This document shows, piece after piece, positions 24,980 to 38,036 of a DNA stretch of 64,000 bases. The translations under genes were made by a program, and so were the position numbers. Source of the stretch: Deltaproteobacteria bacterium (GTDB lineage: Bacteria; JAMCPX01). The stretch spans positions 1 through 64,000 of the forward strand of contig JAMCPX010000031.1 of the NCBI GenBank assembly GCA_023382265.1, in the 5' to 3' direction. Positions within the stretch are counted from its first letter, which is position 1. The number at the start of each line of letters is the position of its first letter. The notes under the pieces are model-generated. The model was not told where the DNA came from, searched no databases, and worked only from the letters and a program-made list of their open reading frames with translations.

Positions 24980-26973
24980 TTATGTGGTTAAAGGGAATGC
25001 AGATGTGGTGGACGCAAATATCGTTTTTCAATTATCCGGGCGGCCCGCCGGGCCGCCCTTTGTTATAGTTATATGCGATATACTTGCAGGTAATGCAAGC
25101 CCTGCCCATGCAGTCCATGTTTTACCTGCGGTGTCTCTGCAATACAAGCCTTCTTCTAAGGATAAGAAAACCTATGCCTGTCAGAGGTATGAGCAGGAAC
25201 ATTATACCGGAACTGCCGCTTGTGCCCTGCGTACCAAGCCATGCACATCCGGAGCTTGACGATGACTTTGTCGCAAAGCTGAAGTCCAGCGTTGACGTAT
25301 TATCAGATGCATCCGTTGCCGTGATAATAACACTGTGCTTACCGGGACTCAGGAAACTGAGCAATATCTGTCTCGACGAGCCGAGGGACTTTGACGGAGA
25401 GCCGTCAAGGCTGTACGCAACCGCGATCTCGTCCGACGGCGTCTGATAATCAGAGACCTTGAGATCGAGTTCCACGTTCGTTCCCGTTGTTGCACCGTTC
25501 TGCATGTTTGTAACGGATATCGCGGGCGGCACAGTGTCTACCCTGAACGTGAGGCATGCCGGCGTAAGGTCCGAGAAATTACCCTTGTTCTTTGCCATGA
25601 CCTCAAACGTATGCACACCCTCTGTCAGAACAGGCAGGGTCGCCTCTGTCGACGTAGTAAACGGCGACCATAAGCCGTCATCAAGCCTGTACGTGTATTC
25701 AAGCTGTGCATTGTAATTCATAGGATCATAGCCCGCATAATTGATCACGGTATTGCTCGAGCTTATCCCAAGCATCTTTGATTGAATGCCGTTGACATTC
25801 AGCGTATTGAGGACAACAGGCCCTGAAGTCTGCTTGCCAATGTCCTGTCCATCAGGTACCAGTATATAAGCGTGCGGTGCACCGTTCTGCATCAATGCCT
25901 GGTACCTCGGCGCACCGAGTATGCCCTGCCAGTTCAACGGGCCGTACGCATAAGCGTATGCCGATAGAAAATCAGGTGTACCATCGGCATCGGCATCCAG
26001 TGCATTCGGATCAGGACCGATATAATAGAAACCCACGTTTATACCGAGCGCACCGAGATTGATCGGTGCCTGGATATAGCCGCCGAGCACGGTCGACAGA
26101 AGAACGGGTATGATCTGGGCAATGCCGTGTACCATATCCTGCGTTATGCCGGGGTATATGTTCGTTACCTGCGTAATCTTGGGAACAAGCAGGAAATTAA
26201 CCATTAATGCGCCGTACGTAGACGGAGGCAAGGGCGTGGGAACAAGGTAACTTATGTCCGCGCCTGCCTGCAGGTTCCAGTTTAACGTGAACATCCTTTG
26301 CTGGACACCACCTACCTGTGCATAGAAATCTATCTGATAGTTCGGCAGTGCCGCATAGATCATGCTCGTGGTAAGTGTACCGGACGTAAACGTCTCGGAC
26401 AGGTTGCGTCCAAGCTGTAAAGATGTCGGAGGCGGGTTGTTCGTCCCGCTCGACCTCGGGATCAAAGAGATCGAAACGTAGGAATTCGGATCAGCTATCT
26501 GTGCGATGGCAGGGGCAAACCTCGCAAACGCATTTATATTAAGATACGATGCGAGCGACGGGTATGTGTTTATGTTTATGTCAATACACGCAAGCCCGGA
26601 CAGATATATGTCGTAAAGCAGCTCATTAAGCACGTCCTGGGACATGCCTATGCCGAGATCATAAGGCTGTCCCGCGTATTGTATCGTATGGGTACTGCCT
26701 CCAAATAGGTATGTGCCGGACGGCACGGTTGTACTGTTGAATACGTTTGCCGCAACCTTTACGCCGGTTGTCGGCGGATTGGTCAGTAAAACGTTTGTCG
26801 GATTAAAGCTCGTCATGTCCACGCAGGATTTGTCACAGCTTGCACTGTTCGACGTATAGTACGGCGTATATATGGCAGGCAACAGGCCGAAATCGAGCGG
26901 GAATTTAACGCCGTAGCAATCCCCGTACAGTCCGCCGGCAGGATCGGGATAGGCGCCGAACAAATAGCAGTTC
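24980..26973. repeat. Near-identical 2-kb repeat, copy 1
   Basis: By eye this segment matches 28352-30345 at a constant offset of 3372 bp, with only two differences noticed (25006 T versus 28378 C; 26943 A versus 30315 G). It covers the 3' untranslated hairpin and the C-terminal 650 or so codons of the BPI-like gene. Identity stops abruptly at 26974, inside the coding region. Such sharp borders are typical of gene conversion or recent recombination. Confidence 0.9.
25038..25058. terminator. G+C-rich hairpin downstream of BPI-like gene B
   Basis: Perfect 9-bp stem (GGGCGGCCC / GGGCCGCCC) with a 3-nt loop, between the convergent peptidase gene and the 3' end of the BPI-like gene. On the plus strand TTTGTTATAG follows, a weak U-tract; on the minus strand there is none. 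It is probably a shared transcription-ending or mRNA-protecting hairpin. Confidence 0.45.
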
Positions 26974-28241
26974 TTTGAGAGATTAAGCGGCTCTCCGAGC
27001 TTTGCATTGATATCCATGGGTAAACCGAGTGTTTTATTCAGCATTACAGGAAGCTGGTTGTTTAACACGTTTTGTAACACAAGCATGACGACGAATTGAA
27101 GATAGTTTGATATTGTTCCATTAACATAACTATCAACAAGGCTGCATACGTTAATGCCGAAGATAGAACAGTTAAAGTTTAATGCCTGTAAATAAAACCC
27201 GGGCAGTAATACACTGGTTACATGCACGGAACCGGGCGGGAAGCTGAAGTATGTATCAGGCCCCCATGGACCGGTTGCCGATGTAAATGAGGGGGTTGCT
27301 GTTGCATTGATTATAATATTGCTTACAGCAGCATATATATCACCGGAAATAGGCCCAAGAAAAGGCAGATCAATACGATAGTTAATGTCTCCGATGTTTA
27401 CCGGCGCACCGGTAAGCAGGCTCCATGTGCTGTCCGGACAATTAGTGGGCCAGGGCTGGCTCGCCCATGAAGGGGTATTGCCGTTAAAAGACAGGTTAAT
27501 GCCTATATTCAAAGTTGCGGGCGTGCCGCCGGAGCATGAATTCGGACTCCACCCGAGTGTTACAGACGCCTGATCATAGTATATAAGAATTCCATCGCCG
27601 ACAGGCAGAGGACAGCTCGACGGTGCACAGTTATCCGTAAGCTGCATGCCGTAAGCAACATCTCCGCAGCATGATCCGCCCACAGTGCAGGGATTGAAAG
27701 GGGTATCGCCGCAGCCATTCGGCGTATAAGTGCCGCCTGAACATGTTCCGCAATATGCAATACAGCCGAAAGGACAACTCCAGCCCGTTTTTGCATAACA
27801 ATAGTCCCCTGCAAAGTTCATGCCGTTGAGCGAGCTGCTGATGTATTTTATCATGTACTCCGTCGTTAACAGGTTCGCAAGCTGTGTTTGCAATGCATTT
27901 ATAGCACCGGCCGTAAGTCTTACAACAAGACCGTCCGGTGCAACGCCGTAAGGGCTGAATTGATTGGGCAATCCCTGTATCGTAAAGTTCGGCGTATAGG
28001 ACGTGGTCGTGGCTGTCGTGCCGGAAAAGGCTTTTAAAGCAACTGCCCTGCCGTTTGCCATGCCCTCAGCGTACAATTCTTTTGGAGAGACATTTATAGT
28101 GGGCATCTGCTGCTGCAATTGCTGGATAGGCTGATCCTGATTTACATTGATATAGGTCTGTCCAAATCCTTTATAAGGATATATTAGCAGTACATATAAT
28201 AATATGCCCATGCTGAGCAATAATAATTTCTTGTGATTCAT
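25122..28241 (-). CDS. Giant secreted BPI/LBP-like (TULIP) lipid-binding protein B
   Basis: A 1039-aa exported protein. Signal peptide about residues 1-27 (ending GFGQ). A segment PDGLVVRLTAGAINALQTQL near 100 resembles the start of the BPI fold (GVVVRISQKGLDYASQQG, recalled from human BPI). A 12-cysteine insert follows (about 140-235). The second half shows LGIGMSQDVLNELLYDIYLS (about 530), FARFAPAIAQIADPNSYVSI (about 574) and LPNYQIDFYAQV (about 634), the order seen in the C-terminal BPI domain. A DADADGTPD calcium-type loop is near 750, two Ig-like domains span 800-990, and the tail has SSSSGC, a hydrophobic stretch and LRRR. The TULIP assignment is inference from local patterns. The C-terminal 650 residues are identical to the neighbour at 28494. 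It has its own promoter and a Shine-Dalgarno (AAAGGAG). Confidence 0.6.
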   Translation of the reverse strand: MNHKKLLLLSMGILLYVLLIYPYKGFGQTYINVNQDQPIQQLQQQMPTINVSPKELYAEGMANGRAVALKAFSGTTATTTSYTPNFTIQGLPNQFSPYGVAPDGLVVRLTAGAINALQTQLANLLTTEYMIKYISSSLNGMNFAGDYCYAKTGWSCPFGCIAYCGTCSGGTYTPNGCGDTPFNPCTVGGSCCGDVAYGMQLTDNCAPSSCPLPVGDGILIYYDQASVTLGWSPNSCSGGTPATLNIGINLSFNGNTPSWASQPWPTNCPDSTWSLLTGAPVNIGDINYRIDLPFLGPISGDIYAAVSNIIINATATPSFTSATGPWGPDTYFSFPPGSVHVTSVLLPGFYLQALNFNCSIFGINVCSLVDSYVNGTISNYLQFVVMLVLQNVLNNQLPVMLNKTLGLPMDINAKLGEPLNLSKNCYLFGAYPDPAGGLYGDCYGVKFPLDFGLLPAIYTPYYTSNSASCDKSCVDMTSFNPTNVLLTNPPTTGVKVAANVFNSTTVPSGTYLFGGSTHTIQYAGQPYDLGIGMSQDVLNELLYDIYLSGLACIDININTYPSLASYLNINAFARFAPAIAQIADPNSYVSISLIPRSSGTNNPPPTSLQLGRNLSETFTSGTLTTSMIYAALPNYQIDFYAQVGGVQQRMFTLNWNLQAGADISYLVPTPLPPSTYGALMVNFLLVPKITQVTNIYPGITQDMVHGIAQIIPVLLSTVLGGYIQAPINLGALGINVGFYYIGPDPNALDADADGTPDFLSAYAYAYGPLNWQGILGAPRYQALMQNGAPHAYILVPDGQDIGKQTSGPVVLNTLNVNGIQSKMLGISSSNTVINYAGYDPMNYNAQLEYTYRLDDGLWSPFTTSTEATLPVLTEGVHTFEVMAKNKGNFSDLTPACLTFRVDTVPPAISVTNMQNGATTGTNVELDLKVSDYQTPSDEIAVAYSLDGSPSKSLGSSRQILLSFLSPGKHSVIITATDASDNTSTLDFSFATKSSSSSGCAWLGTQGTSGSSGIMFLLIPLTGIGFLILRRRLVLQRHRR

Positions 28242-28272
28242 ACTGATTCTCCTTTACCTTCTCATTTGATTC

Positions 28273-28301
28273 ATTATACGCTACTTTATAACAGATGTAA
28301 A
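28273..28301 (-). promoter_or_regulatory. Sigma-70 promoter of BPI-like gene B
   Basis: Minus strand: TTTACA (28301-28296), 17-bp spacer, TATAAT (28278-28273). It aligns with the promoter of the sister gene at 31655-31683, but has one mismatch in the -35 box. The rest of the 252-bp gap (28242-28493) holds the beginning of repeat copy 2 and its hairpin. Confidence 0.75.
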
Positions 28302-28351
28302 CATCATCAATCAAAGAAAACAGCAGGGTATTTTTTAAACCCCTTTTCCCC

Positions 28352-30345
28352 TTATGTGGTTAAAGGGAATGCAGATGCGGTGGACGCAAATATCGTTTTT
28401 CAATTATCCGGGCGGCCCGCCGGGCCGCCCTTTGTTATAGTTATATGCGATATACTTGCAGGTAATGCAAGCCCTGCCCATGCAGTCCATGTTTTACCTG
28501 CGGTGTCTCTGCAATACAAGCCTTCTTCTAAGGATAAGAAAACCTATGCCTGTCAGAGGTATGAGCAGGAACATTATACCGGAACTGCCGCTTGTGCCCT
28601 GCGTACCAAGCCATGCACATCCGGAGCTTGACGATGACTTTGTCGCAAAGCTGAAGTCCAGCGTTGACGTATTATCAGATGCATCCGTTGCCGTGATAAT
28701 AACACTGTGCTTACCGGGACTCAGGAAACTGAGCAATATCTGTCTCGACGAGCCGAGGGACTTTGACGGAGAGCCGTCAAGGCTGTACGCAACCGCGATC
28801 TCGTCCGACGGCGTCTGATAATCAGAGACCTTGAGATCGAGTTCCACGTTCGTTCCCGTTGTTGCACCGTTCTGCATGTTTGTAACGGATATCGCGGGCG
28901 GCACAGTGTCTACCCTGAACGTGAGGCATGCCGGCGTAAGGTCCGAGAAATTACCCTTGTTCTTTGCCATGACCTCAAACGTATGCACACCCTCTGTCAG
29001 AACAGGCAGGGTCGCCTCTGTCGACGTAGTAAACGGCGACCATAAGCCGTCATCAAGCCTGTACGTGTATTCAAGCTGTGCATTGTAATTCATAGGATCA
29101 TAGCCCGCATAATTGATCACGGTATTGCTCGAGCTTATCCCAAGCATCTTTGATTGAATGCCGTTGACATTCAGCGTATTGAGGACAACAGGCCCTGAAG
29201 TCTGCTTGCCAATGTCCTGTCCATCAGGTACCAGTATATAAGCGTGCGGTGCACCGTTCTGCATCAATGCCTGGTACCTCGGCGCACCGAGTATGCCCTG
29301 CCAGTTCAACGGGCCGTACGCATAAGCGTATGCCGATAGAAAATCAGGTGTACCATCGGCATCGGCATCCAGTGCATTCGGATCAGGACCGATATAATAG
29401 AAACCCACGTTTATACCGAGCGCACCGAGATTGATCGGTGCCTGGATATAGCCGCCGAGCACGGTCGACAGAAGAACGGGTATGATCTGGGCAATGCCGT
29501 GTACCATATCCTGCGTTATGCCGGGGTATATGTTCGTTACCTGCGTAATCTTGGGAACAAGCAGGAAATTAACCATTAATGCGCCGTACGTAGACGGAGG
29601 CAAGGGCGTGGGAACAAGGTAACTTATGTCCGCGCCTGCCTGCAGGTTCCAGTTTAACGTGAACATCCTTTGCTGGACACCACCTACCTGTGCATAGAAA
29701 TCTATCTGATAGTTCGGCAGTGCCGCATAGATCATGCTCGTGGTAAGTGTACCGGACGTAAACGTCTCGGACAGGTTGCGTCCAAGCTGTAAAGATGTCG
29801 GAGGCGGGTTGTTCGTCCCGCTCGACCTCGGGATCAAAGAGATCGAAACGTAGGAATTCGGATCAGCTATCTGTGCGATGGCAGGGGCAAACCTCGCAAA
29901 CGCATTTATATTAAGATACGATGCGAGCGACGGGTATGTGTTTATGTTTATGTCAATACACGCAAGCCCGGACAGATATATGTCGTAAAGCAGCTCATTA
30001 AGCACGTCCTGGGACATGCCTATGCCGAGATCATAAGGCTGTCCCGCGTATTGTATCGTATGGGTACTGCCTCCAAATAGGTATGTGCCGGACGGCACGG
30101 TTGTACTGTTGAATACGTTTGCCGCAACCTTTACGCCGGTTGTCGGCGGATTGGTCAGTAAAACGTTTGTCGGATTAAAGCTCGTCATGTCCACGCAGGA
30201 TTTGTCACAGCTTGCACTGTTCGACGTATAGTACGGCGTATATATGGCAGGCAACAGGCCGAAATCGAGCGGGAATTTAACGCCGTAGCAATCCCCGTAC
30301 AGTCCGCCGGCAGGGTCGGGATAGGCGCCGAACAAATAGCAGTTC
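28352..30345. repeat. Near-identical 2-kb repeat, copy 2
   Basis: Second copy of the segment at 24980-26973, in direct orientation. It starts in the untranslated region downstream of BPI-like gene C and ends inside that gene, where codons diverge from the first copy at 30346. Confidence 0.9.
28410..28430. terminator. G+C-rich hairpin downstream of BPI-like gene C
   Basis: Same 9-bp stem and 3-nt loop as at 25038, duplicated with the repeat. It separates gene C from the promoter of gene B. The U-tract is weak on both strands. Confidence 0.45.
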
Positions 30346-31622
30346 GTGGAGAGATTAAGCGGCTCTCCGAGCAATTTATTGATATCGAGTGGTAAGCCAA
30401 GCCCGCTGTTCAGCATTGTCGGGAGCTGGGTGTTTAACGCGTTTTGTATCGTGCTTTGAACAGTGCCCTGAAGGTATCCTGATACCAGCCCATTAATCCA
30501 TGTAGCAATCGACTGACATGGATTCCAGCCGAAGATGCTACAGCTCCAGTTTAATGCCTGTACATAGAACCCTGGCAAAGATACACTGTTTACATGTACG
30601 GAACCGGGCGGGAAGCTGAAGTATGTATCAGGACCCCATGCGGTGGTTGCCGATGTAAATGAGGGGGTTGCTGTCGCATTAATACTGATGTTATTTACTG
30701 CTGCGTACCCATTACCTGTCAGCGTTCCAACTATAGATATGTCGGCACGATAGTTGATATCACCGACATATAACGGCGCAGATCCCGGGCCAGAGCTCCA
30801 ATTGCTGTCAGGACAGTTATTGGGCCACCACTGGCTTGCCCATGAAGGGGTATTACCGTCGAAGTACAGTTGAATGCCTATGTTTAAGCTCGTAGGCACG
30901 CCGCCAGGACATGTGTTCGGGCTCCATGCAAGGGTTACATTTGCCTTATCATAGTACATCAAGATGCCATCACCCGCAGGCAGGGGACAGCCTGAAGGCT
31001 GACAATCATCCGTAAGCTGTACTCCATACTTGGCATCCGCACAGCATGAACCGCCGTAGCTGCAAGGAGAGAACGGGCCGTCGCCGCAGCCATTCGGCGT
31101 ATAAGTGCCGCCTGAGCATGAACCGCAGCTTCCAAGACAGCCAAAAGGACACGTCCAGTTTGCCGTTGCCCAGCAAAAATCGCCTGCAAAGTTCTCGCCA
31201 TTAAGTGAGGTGCCTATATATTTTATCATGTATTCCGATGTTAACAGGTTCGCAAGCTGTGTCTGCAATGCGTTTATAGCGCCGGATGTAAGCCTTAAAA
31301 CAACGCCGTCAGGCGCAACGCCGTAAGGGCTGAATTGATTGGGCAATCCCTGTATGGTAAGGTTCGGAGTAAATGCCGGGGTTGTGGCTGTTGTGCCGGA
31401 AAAAGCCTTTAAAGCTATTGCAGTGCCCTCTGTAAAGCCCTGCTCATACAATGCTTTTGGAGAGACGCCTGTAAGAGTGGGCATAGGCTGCTGTTCATAT
31501 TGCTGGATAGGCTGGTTTTGATTCCCATTAAAATAGGTCTGCCCAAATCCTTTATAAGGATGTATGAGTAATACGTATAAAAATATACTCAAGGTAACCA
31601 CTAACAATTTTTTGTTATCCAT
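28494..31622 (-). CDS. Giant secreted BPI/LBP-like (TULIP) lipid-binding protein C
   Basis: A 1042-aa paralogue of the protein at 25122, with signal peptide (MDNKKLLVVTLSIFLYVLLI, ending GFGQ), BPI-type start PDGVVLRLTSGAINALQTQL, a 12-cysteine insert at the same positions, the C-terminal BPI-like half, calcium-type loop, two Ig-like domains and a Cys/hydrophobic/Arg tail. From about residue 420 onward it is identical to protein B, while the N-terminal 400 residues differ at many positions. The pair therefore offers two different N-terminal modules on one constant C-terminal half. Promoter TTGACA-17-TATAAT and a Shine-Dalgarno (AAAGGAGGG) suggest strong expression. Same caveat: the TULIP fold is inferred, not demonstrated. 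Confidence 0.6.
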   Translation of the reverse strand: MDNKKLLVVTLSIFLYVLLIHPYKGFGQTYFNGNQNQPIQQYEQQPMPTLTGVSPKALYEQGFTEGTAIALKAFSGTTATTPAFTPNLTIQGLPNQFSPYGVAPDGVVLRLTSGAINALQTQLANLLTSEYMIKYIGTSLNGENFAGDFCWATANWTCPFGCLGSCGSCSGGTYTPNGCGDGPFSPCSYGGSCCADAKYGVQLTDDCQPSGCPLPAGDGILMYYDKANVTLAWSPNTCPGGVPTSLNIGIQLYFDGNTPSWASQWWPNNCPDSNWSSGPGSAPLYVGDINYRADISIVGTLTGNGYAAVNNISINATATPSFTSATTAWGPDTYFSFPPGSVHVNSVSLPGFYVQALNWSCSIFGWNPCQSIATWINGLVSGYLQGTVQSTIQNALNTQLPTMLNSGLGLPLDINKLLGEPLNLSTNCYLFGAYPDPAGGLYGDCYGVKFPLDFGLLPAIYTPYYTSNSASCDKSCVDMTSFNPTNVLLTNPPTTGVKVAANVFNSTTVPSGTYLFGGSTHTIQYAGQPYDLGIGMSQDVLNELLYDIYLSGLACIDININTYPSLASYLNINAFARFAPAIAQIADPNSYVSISLIPRSSGTNNPPPTSLQLGRNLSETFTSGTLTTSMIYAALPNYQIDFYAQVGGVQQRMFTLNWNLQAGADISYLVPTPLPPSTYGALMVNFLLVPKITQVTNIYPGITQDMVHGIAQIIPVLLSTVLGGYIQAPINLGALGINVGFYYIGPDPNALDADADGTPDFLSAYAYAYGPLNWQGILGAPRYQALMQNGAPHAYILVPDGQDIGKQTSGPVVLNTLNVNGIQSKMLGISSSNTVINYAGYDPMNYNAQLEYTYRLDDGLWSPFTTSTEATLPVLTEGVHTFEVMAKNKGNFSDLTPACLTFRVDTVPPAISVTNMQNGATTGTNVELDLKVSDYQTPSDEIAVAYSLDGSPSKSLGSSRQILLSFLSPGKHSVIITATDASDNTSTLDFSFATKSSSSSGCAWLGTQGTSGSSGIMFLLIPLTGIGFLILRRRLVLQRHRR

Positions 31623-31654
31623 GGCTGTCCCTCCTTTACCTTCTTATTAAACTC

Positions 31655-31683
31655 ATTATACATAAATCTATAACGGATGTCAA
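31655..31683 (-). promoter_or_regulatory. Consensus sigma-70 promoter of BPI-like gene C
   Basis: Minus strand: TTGACA (31683-31678), exactly 17 bp, TATAAT (31660-31655), a perfect match to the E. coli consensus. The transcript leader is about 25 nt and contains AAAGGAGGG. Confidence 0.85.
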
Positions 31684-31698
31684 TAGCATAAAAATATC

Positions 31699-32856
31699 TT
31701 AATAATAGTTTATGTATGCAAACATAAGCGCATGACTCGTTGCGTTTCTATAACTTATGCCGAGCCCGCCTGCGGGTGATTTAGCCATGCTTATCCAATA
31801 GCCTGTTCTGTAGATATCCGATCTGTCGACATAGTACGTACTCCAGCCCTTGTTTCCTCTTATGGCAAATTTTAATGCGTCATTCGTTACGTCCTGGTAT
31901 GCAACAACGGGATTCCCGAATTGATCTATTGCAATGGAATTGTAAGCCCCTACAAAACTCTCTGCGTCTATGTATTCATAATTCCAGCCCGTCCCGTCGT
32001 TATAAGCATACCTGAGTGTCCCATTATCAGCGTCATAATAGCTGATATGCGGATTATTAGCGCTGTCCAGCACAAGTGAATTATACATGCCCACGTCTTT
32101 TGACGACGGCTGCAACTCTGATCCGTTGGCAACGATCTGAAGGTTCCACTGCTGGGTTGACGTATCATAGCTGCCGAGCTTAAGTGTCCCGTTTGATGCG
32201 TTATAATAGCTGACGTACGGGATTCCCTGTGGCGTGAGCTGGAGCGAGGACGTGAAGTTGATGTCGCCGGTCCCATACCCCTGCTGCAAAGAAGCACCGG
32301 TGTCCACGAACTGGAGATTAAGCCCGTTACTGCTGCTGATAAAGCCGTACTTCAACTCGTAATTAAGAGGGGCTGCGGTTATGTAGGTAAAATGGGGATT
32401 GCCGTTTACATCAAGCTTGAGGGAGCTGTATGTGCCGTTCGGATTAAACGGATCTATTGTCTTGATCACCCATCCCTGCTGGGTTTTATAGGCATACTTT
32501 AATACGCTGTCAGTGGCATCATAGTATGTGATGTGCGGCACATTGTTCCCGTCAATCGCGAGCGACGGGTATAGACCGGTGTCGCCGTTCTTATCCACAA
32601 CCTCCGTAACAAAGCCGCCGCCGTTATAATGCGCCAGCTTTAACACCCCGTCCGTGGCATCATAATAAGCTATCCATGGATTTCCATTGTTATCAAAAGC
32701 CATCGAGGAAAAATAGCCTGTGTCCCCTGTGGTATCGACCGTGTATATAACACTGCCGGGAAGCATGCCCGAGCTTGTAAACTGGCCTGTTCTGCCGCAG
32801 TTTACTATAAAAAGCCCCGCCATTATCAATATAATAAAAAGATATATACGTTTCAT
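31699..32856 (-). CDS. Seven-repeat propeller-type lipoprotein 1
   Basis: A 385-aa lipoprotein (lipobox GLFIVNC). The mature part is made of seven repeats of about 45-55 residues with the pattern Y-S-S/L-D-x-x-G-x-P-x-I-x-Y-Y-D-x-x-x-x-x-L-K-x-A, for example YPSLAIDGNNVPHITYYDAT and YNSLVLDSANNPHISYYDAD. Seven units of this kind suggest a seven-bladed beta-propeller. No catalytic motif is seen; ligand or protein binding at the cell envelope is the likely role. Its ATG overlaps the stop of the similar gene upstream (4 bp), so the two are co-translated. It lies between BPI-like genes A and C on the same strand. Confidence 0.75.
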   Translation of the reverse strand: MKRIYLFIILIMAGLFIVNCGRTGQFTSSGMLPGSVIYTVDTTGDTGYFSSMAFDNNGNPWIAYYDATDGVLKLAHYNGGGFVTEVVDKNGDTGLYPSLAIDGNNVPHITYYDATDSVLKYAYKTQQGWVIKTIDPFNPNGTYSSLKLDVNGNPHFTYITAAPLNYELKYGFISSSNGLNLQFVDTGASLQQGYGTGDINFTSSLQLTPQGIPYVSYYNASNGTLKLGSYDTSTQQWNLQIVANGSELQPSSKDVGMYNSLVLDSANNPHISYYDADNGTLRYAYNDGTGWNYEYIDAESFVGAYNSIAIDQFGNPVVAYQDVTNDALKFAIRGNKGWSTYYVDRSDIYRTGYWISMAKSPAGGLGISYRNATSHALMFAYINYY

Positions 32857-34112
32857 AAGTTATTGTAATCAATAATACCGAATTTTATTGTAAACAAGTT
32901 AAACCCGGGTGCATACTGCTGATACGTAACAGTGGGCGTACCTGTCGGTGCGAGTGCCAAAGACGGATAAAACCCCGACAGCAATGCAGAGTCGAGTATG
33001 GAGATGTTCCACCTGTTGTCGGATATGAATGCTACCTTAAGCTGATTGAACGTAGAATCATAGTAGGCTATAACCGGGTTGCCGTTACTGTCAAGGATAA
33101 TAGAGTTTGTGACAAACTTGACACCGCTCTCATAATCAACATACTCATTATGAAAGGCGGAGCCGTCATACCATGCATACTTCAATGCTATCGTTACTGT
33201 GCCCGTATTCTCGGTATATGAGAGATGCGGATAACCTTTGCTGTCGAGGGCGAGGGAAAGGTATTGACCGTCATCGTAGCCTGAATTGTCTACAACCTGT
33301 GTTATCCAAGCACCCCCTTTATTCTTCGCTATCTTCAACGCATGATCAAAGACATCATAATATGCAAGCCATATTGTTCCGTCAGGAGCTACAGCAATAG
33401 CTGTGGAATATGCCGTGGACGCGAGCGGCTGCGCCAGTGCCCTGCCTTCTATGCCTGGATCAACTACCTGCGGTGATATGGATGTGCCAGACGACCATGA
33501 AACGTACCGCGGATAAGCAGCAACAACCCTTGAAGGATCATTGCTGTCAAGCACGACGTGCATATAACTGATGTTCACCTTGTCGTTTTGCCCGAGTTTC
33601 AAAGACGTGTAAAGGCCCGTCTGATTGTAAGGCTGTGCCGAGGTAACATGATCGAGCGTATACATCTTAGGCTGTGCAATACTTCCTATATTTGAAGGCA
33701 ACGGGCCCGTTACCATTTCAAGGGCATTGGAAATGGGATCAAAGTAGCTTATATAGTAATTATTACCGTTCGATATCCCCATTGATCCGTAACTTCCCGC
33801 ATCGATGTAACCGGTCCCGCCGGTAACCACAACATTGTCCCAGTATCCGGACCGGTCAAGCCATGCCATCTTTAACGTACCGTTATAACCATCCCTGTAC
33901 GCCACATAAGGCACACCGCCGGAAGTATATGCAAGGGAAGAATACGCACCTATCTGTGTACCGCTATCGATGATCCTTGAAAGCATTTTCATACCGAGAG
34001 GACTCGTGTGGCTTACAAGAAATGCCCTGCCGCACCCGTAGCCTGACATCAAAATTACAGCAAATAGTGCATAAGTAAATCTTAACCTGATTTGACGCCG
34101 TTTTTTGCTCAC
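32853..34112 (-). CDS. Seven-repeat propeller-type lipoprotein 2
   Basis: A 419-aa lipoprotein: basic N-terminus MSKKRRQIRLRF, hydrophobic segment, lipobox SGYGC. Seven repeats of the same kind as in the downstream gene are visible (YSSLAYTSGGVPYVAYRDGY, YLSLALDSKGYPHLSYTENT, TNSIILDSNGNPVIAYYDST and others), so it should also be a seven-bladed propeller. The two proteins are clearly paralogous but well diverged. It begins 74 bp after BPI-like gene A, from which it is separated by an intrinsic terminator, so it probably has its own promoter or depends on read-through. Confidence 0.75.
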   Translation of the reverse strand: MSKKRRQIRLRFTYALFAVILMSGYGCGRAFLVSHTSPLGMKMLSRIIDSGTQIGAYSSLAYTSGGVPYVAYRDGYNGTLKMAWLDRSGYWDNVVVTGGTGYIDAGSYGSMGISNGNNYYISYFDPISNALEMVTGPLPSNIGSIAQPKMYTLDHVTSAQPYNQTGLYTSLKLGQNDKVNISYMHVVLDSNDPSRVVAAYPRYVSWSSGTSISPQVVDPGIEGRALAQPLASTAYSTAIAVAPDGTIWLAYYDVFDHALKIAKNKGGAWITQVVDNSGYDDGQYLSLALDSKGYPHLSYTENTGTVTIALKYAWYDGSAFHNEYVDYESGVKFVTNSIILDSNGNPVIAYYDSTFNQLKVAFISDNRWNISILDSALLSGFYPSLALAPTGTPTVTYQQYAPGFNLFTIKFGIIDYNNL

Positions 34113-34149
34113 TTTTCAGCCTTCACCATTTTTTTAGTTTAAAAATATT

Positions 34150-34178
34150 AAAAAAGCGTCCTGCCAAAGGCAGGACGC
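34150..34178 (-). terminator. Intrinsic terminator of BPI-like gene A
   Basis: On the minus strand: a perfect 10-bp stem (GCGTCCTGCC / GGCAGGACGC) with a 3-nt loop followed by six T. It lies 9 bp beyond the stop codon of the 915-aa gene. A textbook rho-independent terminator. Confidence 0.92.
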
Positions 34179-34186
34179 CAATACGA

Positions 34187-36934
34187 TTATCTTATTTCCT
34201 TTTCCCTTCTCTTCAACACGTACACGAATACTAGCGGAACTATTATCATAAACAGAAGCGTTAACAAGCCCGCATTCCCTTGATCGGATGTCGTTGAACA
34301 GCCGAAGAAGCCTGATTTGGCACCGTTTACCACATTAAAGTTGGCACTGACATCACTCGCATTACCCGCCAGATCAACGGCTTGTATAACCACCGAATGG
34401 CTGCCTGAGCTGAGTCCGGATAGTACAACATCTTTGTTTGTAGACGGCGTCGTAAAGCCCTTGTTATCAAGATTGTATAAAATGGCGATCTCGTTAGACG
34501 GGGTTTGATCGTCGGACGCCTGCACCTCAAAGGTTGCCCTGCTTCCATTCACCGTCCCCTGCGGACCTGTGACAGAAAGTGTCGGCGGGATAGAATCAAT
34601 ATCAAAGGTCAGCGTTGCCGGGGATGCGGATTCCATACTATTGGCATCAATCGCCTCAACCCTAAGGGTGTGCTGTCCTTCAAGCAAGTTACTAAGCTCA
34701 ATGTGATTTCCTGAAATATAGAATGACCATGGTCCGTTATCCATGCTGTAAACATAGTTGATCCCCGTGTTCTGCCCGTTAACCTCATACCCGGACACGC
34801 CGACAACACTCGAGTATGCTGTCAAGCCTGCTTCTTTCGTCTGTTTTGCGTCCAAAACGATGTTTGAACCGCTCAAACCGCCTACAGACACGTCTGCAGC
34901 AGGATACGGGAGACCGAGCTGCATCGGGCTTGGCTGGGGTGATGATAGACCAAGTGAAGACGTAAGCCCTGTAGAGCTGAGCAGCGTAAAGATCAGACCC
35001 GGATCGATATTCCCGACAATGGATGCATAAAAAGCAAAGTAGCTCGGGTTGCCTGTGGTTGGATCAATCAGACCCGCGGGACCGATGTAGGGTGCATCAA
35101 ATGTAATACCAAGCAGCGGTGCGAGATTGACTGCGAGATCCAATCTGCCGTTGATTGCGGTTGTCAGCAATGTCGGCAGTATCTGGGAGATTGCATTGTG
35201 CATACTGGTAACCGTAAGCGGCAATGCTGCAGAATATGGTATGTATTCCTCAATAGTCGGTTGATCCGCAAGCAGTACCCTGACAACACGCGCAGCTGCG
35301 GGAAGATTGGGATCGGTCCACACGGTAATTCCAAAACCCGCGGTTAGACTTATATCCAAACCGAACACCCGCTGATAATCACCAGCCCCGGTTGTGTCTA
35401 CATAGAAATCGGTAACAAAATGGGGAATAACCGCGTTTAAAGTCCCCCAGACACCCGAAGGCCCTGTAGATGGAGCCGGTACCGGACCCAGGGTCGTTGT
35501 CATGGTTGTATACATTGCAGGACCGGTTTTTATGTACGGCGTATCTATCAGCTGATTGTATGCACCCGATTCGGGGCTTATCAGCGTTGGCCGTAATGAT
35601 ATCTGCATCGGCATCTTGGGATAATACTCGGTAAGTGCCGGCATAAGTAAGCCGAATATGGTGGTGGTAAGATACGTTCCCACAAGACTGCCGAGAGTCG
35701 GAGTATTCTTGTTTACGTCGAGGCACAGAATACCATCTGTGTAGACATTATACAATAGTTCTGAAAGCACGTTTTCATGGACCGCAATACCTGCCATGTA
35801 GGACCCGCCTGTAGGTGTGGTGCCTCCCATCTCAAAACCCGGAGCCGGGATAGGATTCATAATAATCGGTCCCGCACCTGTAGGCATTGTTACGCAGGAG
35901 CCGAGGTTGTATTTCAATCCGAGACCTAAACCGCCGGGATAGAATTCTATGCCGTTGTTGTCCGCTTTAAAGCCCCAGTAGAACCCGGCATCGAGCGTGA
36001 TCTTTCCGCCCGTTACAAACGGATCGGCAAATGTTAGCGATGATATTAATGTGCCGGCATCATAAAGCATCGTTGGACCGAAGTAGTATTCAAGTGCCGA
36101 ATTGAAGTTGTCCTGTGCCTGTGCATTAAACTGTGCATCTATGTAAGGAATCAATGACGAGATCAAACACGATTTATAGGTTTGACTCCCATCGTTAACA
36201 AGCGGATTAGGGCATGCCATATCTGGCGTAAGCGCAAAGTGGAATCCAACGCCGAGATTTGCCTGAAGCAACTGGATGCCGATCATGGTACCGGGCTGAG
36301 GGTTCGGCTGGGTTGTTGCCGTGGGCCAATAGGTCGGGAGATTTCCACCGAGGATCGTAAGGTTTGCACCGATGGATAAATACGGGACGGTTGCCCAACC
36401 GTGAGCAAGTACATAATCCGTTATAGCCGCACCGGTTGTCGACGTGTATGCAGTGCCTGTGTATAGATGAACATCGAGTTTAACATTATCAAGGTTGATA
36501 TTAACACCCATGGTACCTGCCGGGGCGTTTGGCAAGCCTGATGGGGTCGGGTTTGCAGAAATTCCTGTAGGGCCTACCGTGTATGTAAATACATACCCAT
36601 CATAATCCCAATCCTGAATATAAACCGCAAGACATGTCATACCGACAAGCGGAATACTCAAACACGTATCTACCAATGCCTTTGGATTTCCCGTAGTCGA
36701 ATCGGTAAATGCTTTTGTGATCAGATTCTGGATCATGGTAGTAACCGTAGGGGATGTGAGTATGTTGTTGAGCTGTGTGTTAAACCAGCCCAGTCCATTG
36801 TTCGTTAATCTAAGAGTAAATGAGTACGGATCAACCTCAGGCAGAGCATAAGAATTTTTTACATTCGCAAAAGATACCCCTCCTATTAAAATGAGGAGCG
36901 CAAGATAGAACCCTAATCTTTTTTTGCTTTTCAT
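34187..36934 (-). CDS. Giant secreted BPI/LBP-like (TULIP) lipid-binding protein A
   Basis: A 915-aa exported protein, more distant from proteins B and C and without their Cys-rich insert. Signal peptide 1-30. The N-domain opens with FTLRLTNNGLGWFNTQLNNI (about 38-57). The inter-domain region is followed by GIAVHENVLSELLYNVYTDG (about 378-397) and IFGLLMPALTEYYPKMPMQI (about 424-443). The latter matches, in spacing and hydrophobic pattern, a segment recalled from human BPI ([20 protein letters not shown]). Two Ig-like domains (about 690-868) and a tail with FFGC, a hydrophobic helix and LKRRE follow. This copy gives the clearest case for the TULIP fold, a hydrophobic tube that binds lipid. 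Preceded by a strong promoter and Shine-Dalgarno (GGGAGGG); ended by an intrinsic terminator. Confidence 0.6.
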   Translation of the reverse strand: MKSKKRLGFYLALLILIGGVSFANVKNSYALPEVDPYSFTLRLTNNGLGWFNTQLNNILTSPTVTTMIQNLITKAFTDSTTGNPKALVDTCLSIPLVGMTCLAVYIQDWDYDGYVFTYTVGPTGISANPTPSGLPNAPAGTMGVNINLDNVKLDVHLYTGTAYTSTTGAAITDYVLAHGWATVPYLSIGANLTILGGNLPTYWPTATTQPNPQPGTMIGIQLLQANLGVGFHFALTPDMACPNPLVNDGSQTYKSCLISSLIPYIDAQFNAQAQDNFNSALEYYFGPTMLYDAGTLISSLTFADPFVTGGKITLDAGFYWGFKADNNGIEFYPGGLGLGLKYNLGSCVTMPTGAGPIIMNPIPAPGFEMGGTTPTGGSYMAGIAVHENVLSELLYNVYTDGILCLDVNKNTPTLGSLVGTYLTTTIFGLLMPALTEYYPKMPMQISLRPTLISPESGAYNQLIDTPYIKTGPAMYTTMTTTLGPVPAPSTGPSGVWGTLNAVIPHFVTDFYVDTTGAGDYQRVFGLDISLTAGFGITVWTDPNLPAAARVVRVLLADQPTIEEYIPYSAALPLTVTSMHNAISQILPTLLTTAINGRLDLAVNLAPLLGITFDAPYIGPAGLIDPTTGNPSYFAFYASIVGNIDPGLIFTLLSSTGLTSSLGLSSPQPSPMQLGLPYPAADVSVGGLSGSNIVLDAKQTKEAGLTAYSSVVGVSGYEVNGQNTGINYVYSMDNGPWSFYISGNHIELSNLLEGQHTLRVEAIDANSMESASPATLTFDIDSIPPTLSVTGPQGTVNGSRATFEVQASDDQTPSNEIAILYNLDNKGFTTPSTNKDVVLSGLSSGSHSVVIQAVDLAGNASDVSANFNVVNGAKSGFFGCSTTSDQGNAGLLTLLFMIIVPLVFVYVLKRREKEIR

Positions 36935-37232: not shown

Positions 37233-38036
37233 ATGAAGAGATTTTGTTTGGTGATCATTTTTGTCGTAATATGTGCTGGTGTTAATGCGCATGCGGATAT
37301 ATATCCCGGAGTAGGAGGCGACGTATCGTTTACGGACCAAAATAATATATACTATACTGCGTACGGGACACTCGGCTATACCCCTTCTCCAAAAACGTAC
37401 GCCGACGTAGGATACACCCATGAGTGGGATGTCACTCAAACGGCAAGCTCAATGGAATTTCATATCGTCAGTGCGGACCTTTATCATAAATTGTATAAAG
37501 ACTGGAAACTTGGAGGTTCTGCAAGCTACACTTTTGCAGCCACACCGAATGCTTATGGATATTATTTTTTCCTGTCAAGACTTGAAGCAAGGTATTCATT
37601 GGTTCATAATGTAGAGATCGGAGCCGGTCCTGTTTATTATGATGTGTACGGGATAGGAGGTTTTATAGGTGCATTCATCGGATTGTACCTTTATCCGGCT
37701 TATAAATGGTCTATAATCGCAAGAGGAACCATGGACACTGCCATCTCGCAGAATGTATCTCAACAGGATACGGCGATCAGCCTCGGCACGTCCTACAATA
37801 TAATCCGGTATTTTGGCGTATATGCTATATACAGGCTGTCTACGGGTATTTCGACCTCTCCTGCAAACAACACTACCGCCAATAACCCGATCCAGAATAG
37901 AGGAGGCATTGGTACAATGGCAATGGGTACCGGTATGCCGGGTTCATCTAACAGGGACAGCGGGAGCTATCCTGTCATCGGCTATTACACCTCAACCATA
38001 TCGACATTTACACTTGGACTGTTCGTAACGTTTTGA
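37233..38036 (+). CDS. Outer-membrane beta-barrel protein
   Basis: A 267-aa exported protein with a signal peptide ending NAHA-D (cleavage near residue 22). The rest is alternating short strands rich in Tyr, Gly and aromatic girdle residues (YTAYGTLGYTPSPKTYADVG, WKLGGSASYTFAAT, YSLVHNVEIGAGPVYYDVYG) and ends in a strand with C-terminal Phe (FTLGLFVTF), the BAM recognition signature. About ten strands are expected. The family is not recognised. It has GAAGGAG before the ATG. It is divergent from BPI-like gene A and 38 bp ahead of the small periplasmic protein gene, so it may form the outer-membrane part of that locus (inference). Confidence 0.72.
   Translation: MKRFCLVIIFVVICAGVNAHADIYPGVGGDVSFTDQNNIYYTAYGTLGYTPSPKTYADVGYTHEWDVTQTASSMEFHIVSADLYHKLYKDWKLGGSASYTFAATPNAYGYYFFLSRLEARYSLVHNVEIGAGPVYYDVYGIGGFIGAFIGLYLYPAYKWSIIARGTMDTAISQNVSQQDTAISLGTSYNIIRYFGVYAIYRLSTGISTSPANNTTANNPIQNRGGIGTMAMGTGMPGSSNRDSGSYPVIGYYTSTISTFTLGLFVTF

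Follow-up and report, generated by a model that had tools for sequence, protein, structure and literature searches.

A bacterial gene cluster encoding predicted surface proteins with a BPI-like C-terminal domain

Do bacteria carry surface proteins built like the lipid-handling protein BPI and, if so, to what use? In eukaryotes, lipids outside the cell are handled by the proteins BPI, LBP and CETP, whose roots in bacteria are a matter of debate. The question is raised by a 64,000-nucleotide stretch of a deltaproteobacterial genome (assembly GCA_023382265.1, contig JAMCPX010000031.1, positions 1 to 64,000; hereafter the window). A first-pass annotation of this DNA had described three exported, BPI/LBP-like proteins of 1039, 1042 and 915 amino acids (aa), and these were found as three minus-strand open reading frames (ORFs), here termed A, B and P3, with two genes for propeller proteins between P3 and B. 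The results below support homology of their C-terminal domain (C-domain) to that of BPI (BPI-C). With a probability of about 0.6, we consider the P3-propeller-propeller-B-A cluster to encode a system of the cell surface in which sorted proteins with tandem TULIP domains bind lipids or other hydrophobic ligands.

The C-terminal domain and its relation to BPI

The likeness to BPI had been proposed on the basis of short strings. Those quoted for the N-termini were located in A (LVVRLTAGAINALQTQL), B (VVLRLTSGAINALQTQL) and P3 (FTLRLTNNGLGWFNTQL), and the fragments of human BPI given for comparison proved genuine (PDB 1BP1/1EWF). The strings quoted for the second half, ENVLSELLYNVYTDG and IFGLLMPALTEYYPKMPMQI, occur literally in P3 but not in A and B, where the aligned positions read QDVLNELLYDIYLSG, AFARFAPAIAQI...YVSI and PNYQIDFY. 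Alignment over the whole C-domain was obtained for A, B and other A-type proteins, for P3-type proteins and for a third type of ~785 aa (type III), which is encoded at other places in the source genome and by relatives from genus g3.

To compare these domains with BPI, LBP and CETP, sequences of the latter were drawn from PDB alignments. A shallow profile of eight C-domains scored 28.8 against BPI-C/LBP-C, compared with 12.0±1.9 for 60 column shuffles and a C-domain profile maximum of 21.6 among 130 unrelated ORFs; the same profile gave no significant profile-profile match to the N-terminal domain of BPI (BPI-N). When other families were added, the deep profile (33 rows) scored 42.8 against 11.3±1.6 for shuffles (E 5e-6), about 20 standard deviations above them. 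P3 ranked first against BPI-C among all ORFs tested in the decoy comparison. A search of 177,635 PDB sequences with a 23-member C-domain profile returned only two entries at E<=10, both human BPI (E=0.058) and both in register, at BPI residues about 253-370. The Pfam profile PF02886 was matched by 6 of 23 C-domains (best E 3.1e-4) and no other Pfam family was matched twice; the P3 orthologue of a genome of the same family (G007) matched the same part of that profile as P3 did. No Pfam or NCBIfam model covered the TULIP part in the library scans.

Structure prediction pointed in the same direction. The AlphaFold model of a type III C-domain consists of a helix, strands, a 26-residue helix and two strands, an order that agrees with that of BPI-C; at a predicted local distance difference test score (pLDDT) of 37, its Foldseek ranking is informative and its coordinates are not. 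Among PDB entries, places 1-18 were all held by TULIPs (CETP, LBP, BPIFA1, SPLUNC1, BPI and latherin chains; best E 9.8e-4), with OrfX, JHBP and P47 entries close behind. TM-scores were only ~0.3, and the matches therefore support a topology rather than a structure. A viral structure library gave no match with E<0.001. The full-length P3 model (eight sequences; pLDDT 32) was usable only for the immunoglobulin (Ig)-like domains and the transmembrane (TM) helix, residues 781-870 being the only part modelled with confidence (pLDDT about 70-85). The poor quality of both models is due to shallow alignments.

A different fold that has merely converged on BPI-like hydrophobic and helix patterns would fit with these low-confidence models and with the failure of the first, shallow 7-sequence C-domain profile to retrieve BPI from the PDB, as P3 alone and the full-length alignment also failed to do. 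We consider convergence very improbable, however, as scores lie far above those of shuffled columns, the deepened profile retrieves BPI and nothing else, and TULIPs fill all of the first 18 Foldseek places. The first-pass annotation had held that its reading would fall if profile comparison and structure prediction gave no relation to the BPI/LBP families. The profile comparisons, PF02886 matches and Foldseek ranking all gave such a relation, and the resemblance exceeds chance. Homology of the C-domain with BPI-C, and hence with a known TULIP domain, is thus supported by these comparisons.

The N-terminal half was then considered. The A-type N-domain scored 24.1 against BPI-N (shuffles 13.7±2.6), with the match at the region of the closing helix, and a pooled N-domain alignment matched the long helix of BPI-N with 24.8 against 8.2±1.2 (E 0.004). 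The P3-type N-domain alone did not rise above shuffles, and PF01273 was matched neither in scans of the family nor in the genome, where control genomes also gave no match. An N-terminal TULIP domain is weakly supported by these scores, and two TULIP domains of BPI type probably stand in tandem; we put this no higher because decoys show that such N-domain scores can arise by chance.

Distribution, sorting tails and myxosortases

We searched 386 genomes around the source genome with the C-domain profile and found the family in 23 of them, 17 outside the source phylum and belonging to 11 other families. A restriction to one lineage, suspected when a first contig search gave near relatives only, was thereby ruled out. 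No relatives were found among the viral contigs and plasmids searched. Most of the relatives retrieved have 830-1380 aa and a C-terminus composed of a Cys motif (Gly-Cys in most cases), a hydrophobic segment and Arg/Lys residues; Ig-like domains are usual in those from other families. Several also have an N-terminal lipobox-like site, and there are shorter members, of 510-540 aa, that lack a tail. Two relatives (L081:744-4073 and L085:2087-5218) stop right after an FFGC motif, without a TM helix, and may represent truncated tails or frameshifts.

As annotated, A, B and P3 each have a pair of Ig-like domains and end in a hydrophobic tail. The tails had been taken for membrane anchors; their hydrophobic nature stands, but they are better described as MYXO-CTERM-like sorting signals, judging from a tail profile with an invariant Gly-Cys, a TM helix and an Arg/Lys end. 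TIGR03901 was matched by 4 of 24 family members (best E 2.6e-4). In Myxococcus, the protease MrtX cleaves the MYXO-CTERM tail, leading to surface display together with a type II secretion system (PMC11980579). The source genome encodes a CPBP protease that scores 113.9 bits against the Mrt_core model (cut-off 100; G000 contig C50, L025:1177-1827). In the source phylum, Mrt_core exceeded its cut-off in 7 of nine genomes and GspE, the type II secretion ATPase, in all nine.

Mrt_core matches occurred in 43 of the 386 genomes. Of the genomes that carry the TULIP family, 11 are of high quality and all of these had one, compared with 35 of 330 genomes overall (Fisher p 4e-12); the 11 span nine families, and the test ignores phylogeny. 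The association is not circular because the TULIP profile excluded the tail. Family-bearing genomes without an Mrt match are all <=86% complete, and where such a genome encodes tailed members, Mrt is present in other genomes of its family; one family (f118) has neither tails nor Mrt.

These results also bear on whether the tails are plain C-terminal TM anchors of proteins that shuttle lipids between membranes in the periplasm, as proposed for DUF4403 or YceB. The hydrophobic tails with basic ends and the lipobox-like sites of several relatives would agree with this, and the periplasm is where the TULIPs known from diderms have been placed (PMC6791001). An invariant Gly-Cys ahead of the helix, the MYXO-CTERM matches and the co-occurrence with Mrt proteases speak for sorting instead, and we regard periplasmic anchoring as unlikely.

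Possible propeller partners and layout of the cluster

The features of the cluster are given in Table 1. The 419-aa and 385-aa propellers are homologous and form one family with those of near relatives. Within the retrieved TULIP loci, to which the propeller search was confined, propellers of this family adjoin TULIP genes in five genomes of four other families (G196, G158, G296, G022 and G254; E 8e-76 to 4e-23). In each of two of these (G158 and G296, both from the distant family f151) there is a TULIP-propeller-TULIP locus as well as another locus with the arrangement of the window, two propeller ORFs flanked by TULIP genes; propeller boundaries there are uncertain because the ORFs overlap, by ~140 bp in G296 and to a greater extent in G158. 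In three of the type III loci, the TULIP gene is followed by genes for an outer-membrane protein with an OmpA domain and for a propeller lipoprotein. These loci (L022:9475-13536, L021 and L023) encode one more propeller lipoprotein, which is GH130-like and is cut short by the contig end in L021.

The close spacing of the genes and a 4-bp overlap of the propeller genes suggest that P3-propeller-propeller-B-A forms one operon. The gene order in G007 is P3-type, 410 aa, 426 aa and A-type, with the same 4-bp overlap. Its proteins are 58% (P3) and 54% (A) identical to their orthologues in the window, and the syntenic propellers are 57% (419 aa) and 63% (385 aa) identical. A and B do not differ at all over the final 1821 nt of their coding sequences and the 115 nt that follow (1.94 kb), so that in the C-terminal part they amount to hardly more than a single independent sequence; their N-terminal parts are ~70% identical (dN about 0.2, dS about 0.8). 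This looks like gene conversion or a partial duplication, and could also be an assembly artefact. On either side of the cluster lie a papain-like cysteine protease gene (PF00112; 24171-24932), convergent with gene A, and a possible outer-membrane beta-barrel gene (37233-38036; weak NCBIfam match only), divergent from and adjoining P3.

Table 1. Features of the P3-propeller-propeller-B-A cluster (positions in the window; domain and tail assignments are predictions)
Feature	Position	Strand	Basis
P3, 915-aa exported protein, likely tandem TULIP, first cluster gene	34187..36934	-	ORF; PF02886 E=0.0022, below cut-off
P3 putative N-terminal TULIP domain, residues 27-367	35834..36856	-	starts with FTLRLTNNGLGWFNTQL; predicted
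P3 C-terminal TULIP domain (BPI-C homologue)	34997..35833	-	profile comparisons, Pfam, alignment
P3 two Ig-like domains, residues 727-868	34331..34756	-	PF07495/PF19077 below cut-off; Foldseek Ig/FN3 matches
P3 GC-transmembrane-RR sorting tail, MYXO-CTERM-like	34187..34336	-	TIGR03382 14.3 bits (cut-off 15.85); tail profile
419-aa BNR-like propeller, probable lipoprotein	32853..34112	-	4-bp overlap with next gene (385-aa propeller); homologous to it
385-aa BNR-like propeller, probable lipoprotein	31699..32856	-	PF15892 BNR_4 6.9e-8
B, 1042-aa protein, likely tandem TULIP	28494..31622	-	ORF; PKD/Ig matches
B putative N-terminal TULIP domain, residues 91-516	30075..31352	-	weak; A-type N-domain comparison with BPI-N
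B C-terminal TULIP domain	29301..30074	-	alignment with other types
B GC-TM-RRR sorting tail	28494..28649	-	tail profile E 3e-21 (B tail is a member of the profile seed)
A, 1039-aa protein, likely tandem TULIP	25122..28241	-	ORF
A putative N-terminal TULIP domain, residues 88-513	26703..27980	-	weak
A C-terminal TULIP domain	25929..26702	-	alignment, profile comparisons
A two Ig/PKD-like domains, residues 844-983	25293..25712	-	PF00801 2.1e-5, above cut-off
A GC-TM-RRR sorting tail	25122..25277	-	tail profile
1936-bp segment identical to 28379-30314	25007..26942	.	nucleotide comparison
Second copy of the identical 1936-bp segment	28379..30314	.	nucleotide comparison

Proposed surface lipid handling and comparison with known systems

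The proposed surface system would work as follows. A signal peptide would export each TULIP protein, the myxosortase-family CPBP protease of the genome would process the Gly-Cys/TM/Arg tail, probably after lipidation of the cysteine, and the type II secretion system would bring the protein to the outward side of the outer membrane. In that position, the two Ig-like domains would hold up a BPI-like tandem TULIP module with tubular cavities that may bind a lipid or another hydrophobic molecule, and the adjacent propeller lipoproteins would most likely dock on the tube or on surface glycans. Duplication, as in A/B and the paralogues elsewhere, would vary the N-terminal domain and leave the C-terminal half constant. 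The most likely role of the proteins would be to capture lipids or other hydrophobic molecules at the cell's outer surface, or to hand them over there.

Several results weigh against this proposal. Similarity of the N-domain to BPI-N is weak, and one unrelated decoy ORF outscored every family member in that comparison. None of the C-domains reached the curated PF02886 cut-off of 23 bits (P3, 17.9-19.5 bits), and the low confidence of both AlphaFold models and the low TM-scores count here as well. The window tails fell below the curated cut-offs of TIGR03901 and TIGR03382. Members in families f118, f164 and f232 end soon after the C-domain and have no tail, so surface sorting is not universal; in one genome (G321) the protease is present and the members are tail-less. 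The co-occurrence test, blind to phylogeny, has the same bearing.

Rather than moving lipids, the TULIP modules could serve as rigid surface scaffolds or adhesins that owe their specificity to the Ig-like domains and propellers. The Ig/PKD domains, sorting tails and propeller partners would all fit such a role. Moreover, the same GC-TM-K/R tail was found on other proteins of the source genome (C8:5890-6012, C28:21675-21770 and C32:3227-3370): a large repeat protein of 1251 aa, one that is probably a glycoside hydrolase, and one with a HEYGH metalloprotease-like motif. From their sequences these look like hydrolases, and most MYXO-CTERM proteins are predicted to be adhesins or hydrolases (PMC11980579). 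Across families, however, it is the TULIP C-domain that is conserved, and the short members do without a tail; we therefore judge a scaffold or adhesin to be improbable, if less so than periplasmic anchoring. Antibacterial proteins acting on the lipopolysaccharide of neighbours, as BPI does, would agree with a homology found, in the searches run, to BPI-C and not to YceB or DUF4403. Nothing in the results connects the family with killing, an immunity gene was not identified and the producers, with their GspE and OmpA-domain genes, are diderms too, which makes this idea far-fetched. A surface system for hydrophobic ligands thus remains our preferred reading. Its wider form, in which an undescribed TULIP-propeller-propeller-TULIP cassette for lipid handling is placed by myxosortases at the surface of distant lineages and encodes closer relatives of the C-domain of eukaryotic BPI than the TULIPs described to date from bacteria, is put forward tentatively, with slightly more doubt than confidence.

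Among known systems, MYXO-CTERM proteins and the myxosortases MrtX, MrtC and MrtP share with the present family the Cys motif, TM helix, Arg-rich end and an Mrt_core protease in the genome; they differ in that the tails described here score under the curated cut-offs and their processing is predicted. The clostridial P47 and OrfX1-3 proteins have a TULIP fold and appeared lower in the Foldseek list, but here Ig domains and sorting tails are added, and no toxin genes were seen in the window. DUF4403 (PF14356), YceB/DUF1439, DUF2140 and DUF2993 are also bacterial TULIPs, assigned, unlike the proposed location here, to the periplasm or the outer face of the inner membrane. Membership in DUF4403 was rejected, as PF14356 matched none of 24 full-length members or 23 C-domains, and the other bacterial TULIP families of Pfam likewise matched none of them; PF14356 was not found in nine genomes of the phylum, where its control matched nowhere either. 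Since DUF4403 is predicted to be a tandem pseudodimer (PMC6791001), tandem bacterial TULIPs are already known, the present kind of protein is not new as such, and the first-pass view of tandem BPI-type TULIPs as known mainly from eukaryotes no longer holds.

BPI, LBP and CETP (PF01273 and PF02886) share a homologous C-domain, in register, with the present proteins, which differ in being bacterial, in scoring below Pfam cut-offs with an N-domain that PF01273 does not recognise, and in their length (mostly 830-1380 aa) with Ig domains and a sorting tail. BPI-C homology in a bacterial surface protein that combines Ig and sorting modules and is encoded in a cassette appears to be undescribed in the libraries and open literature searched. 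If the reading is true, a widespread, unannotated bacterial family would add a new class to the lipid-binding proteins of cell surfaces and extend the set of clients of myxosortases, a recently characterised type of protease, and the origin of the BPI family would become testable by sequence.

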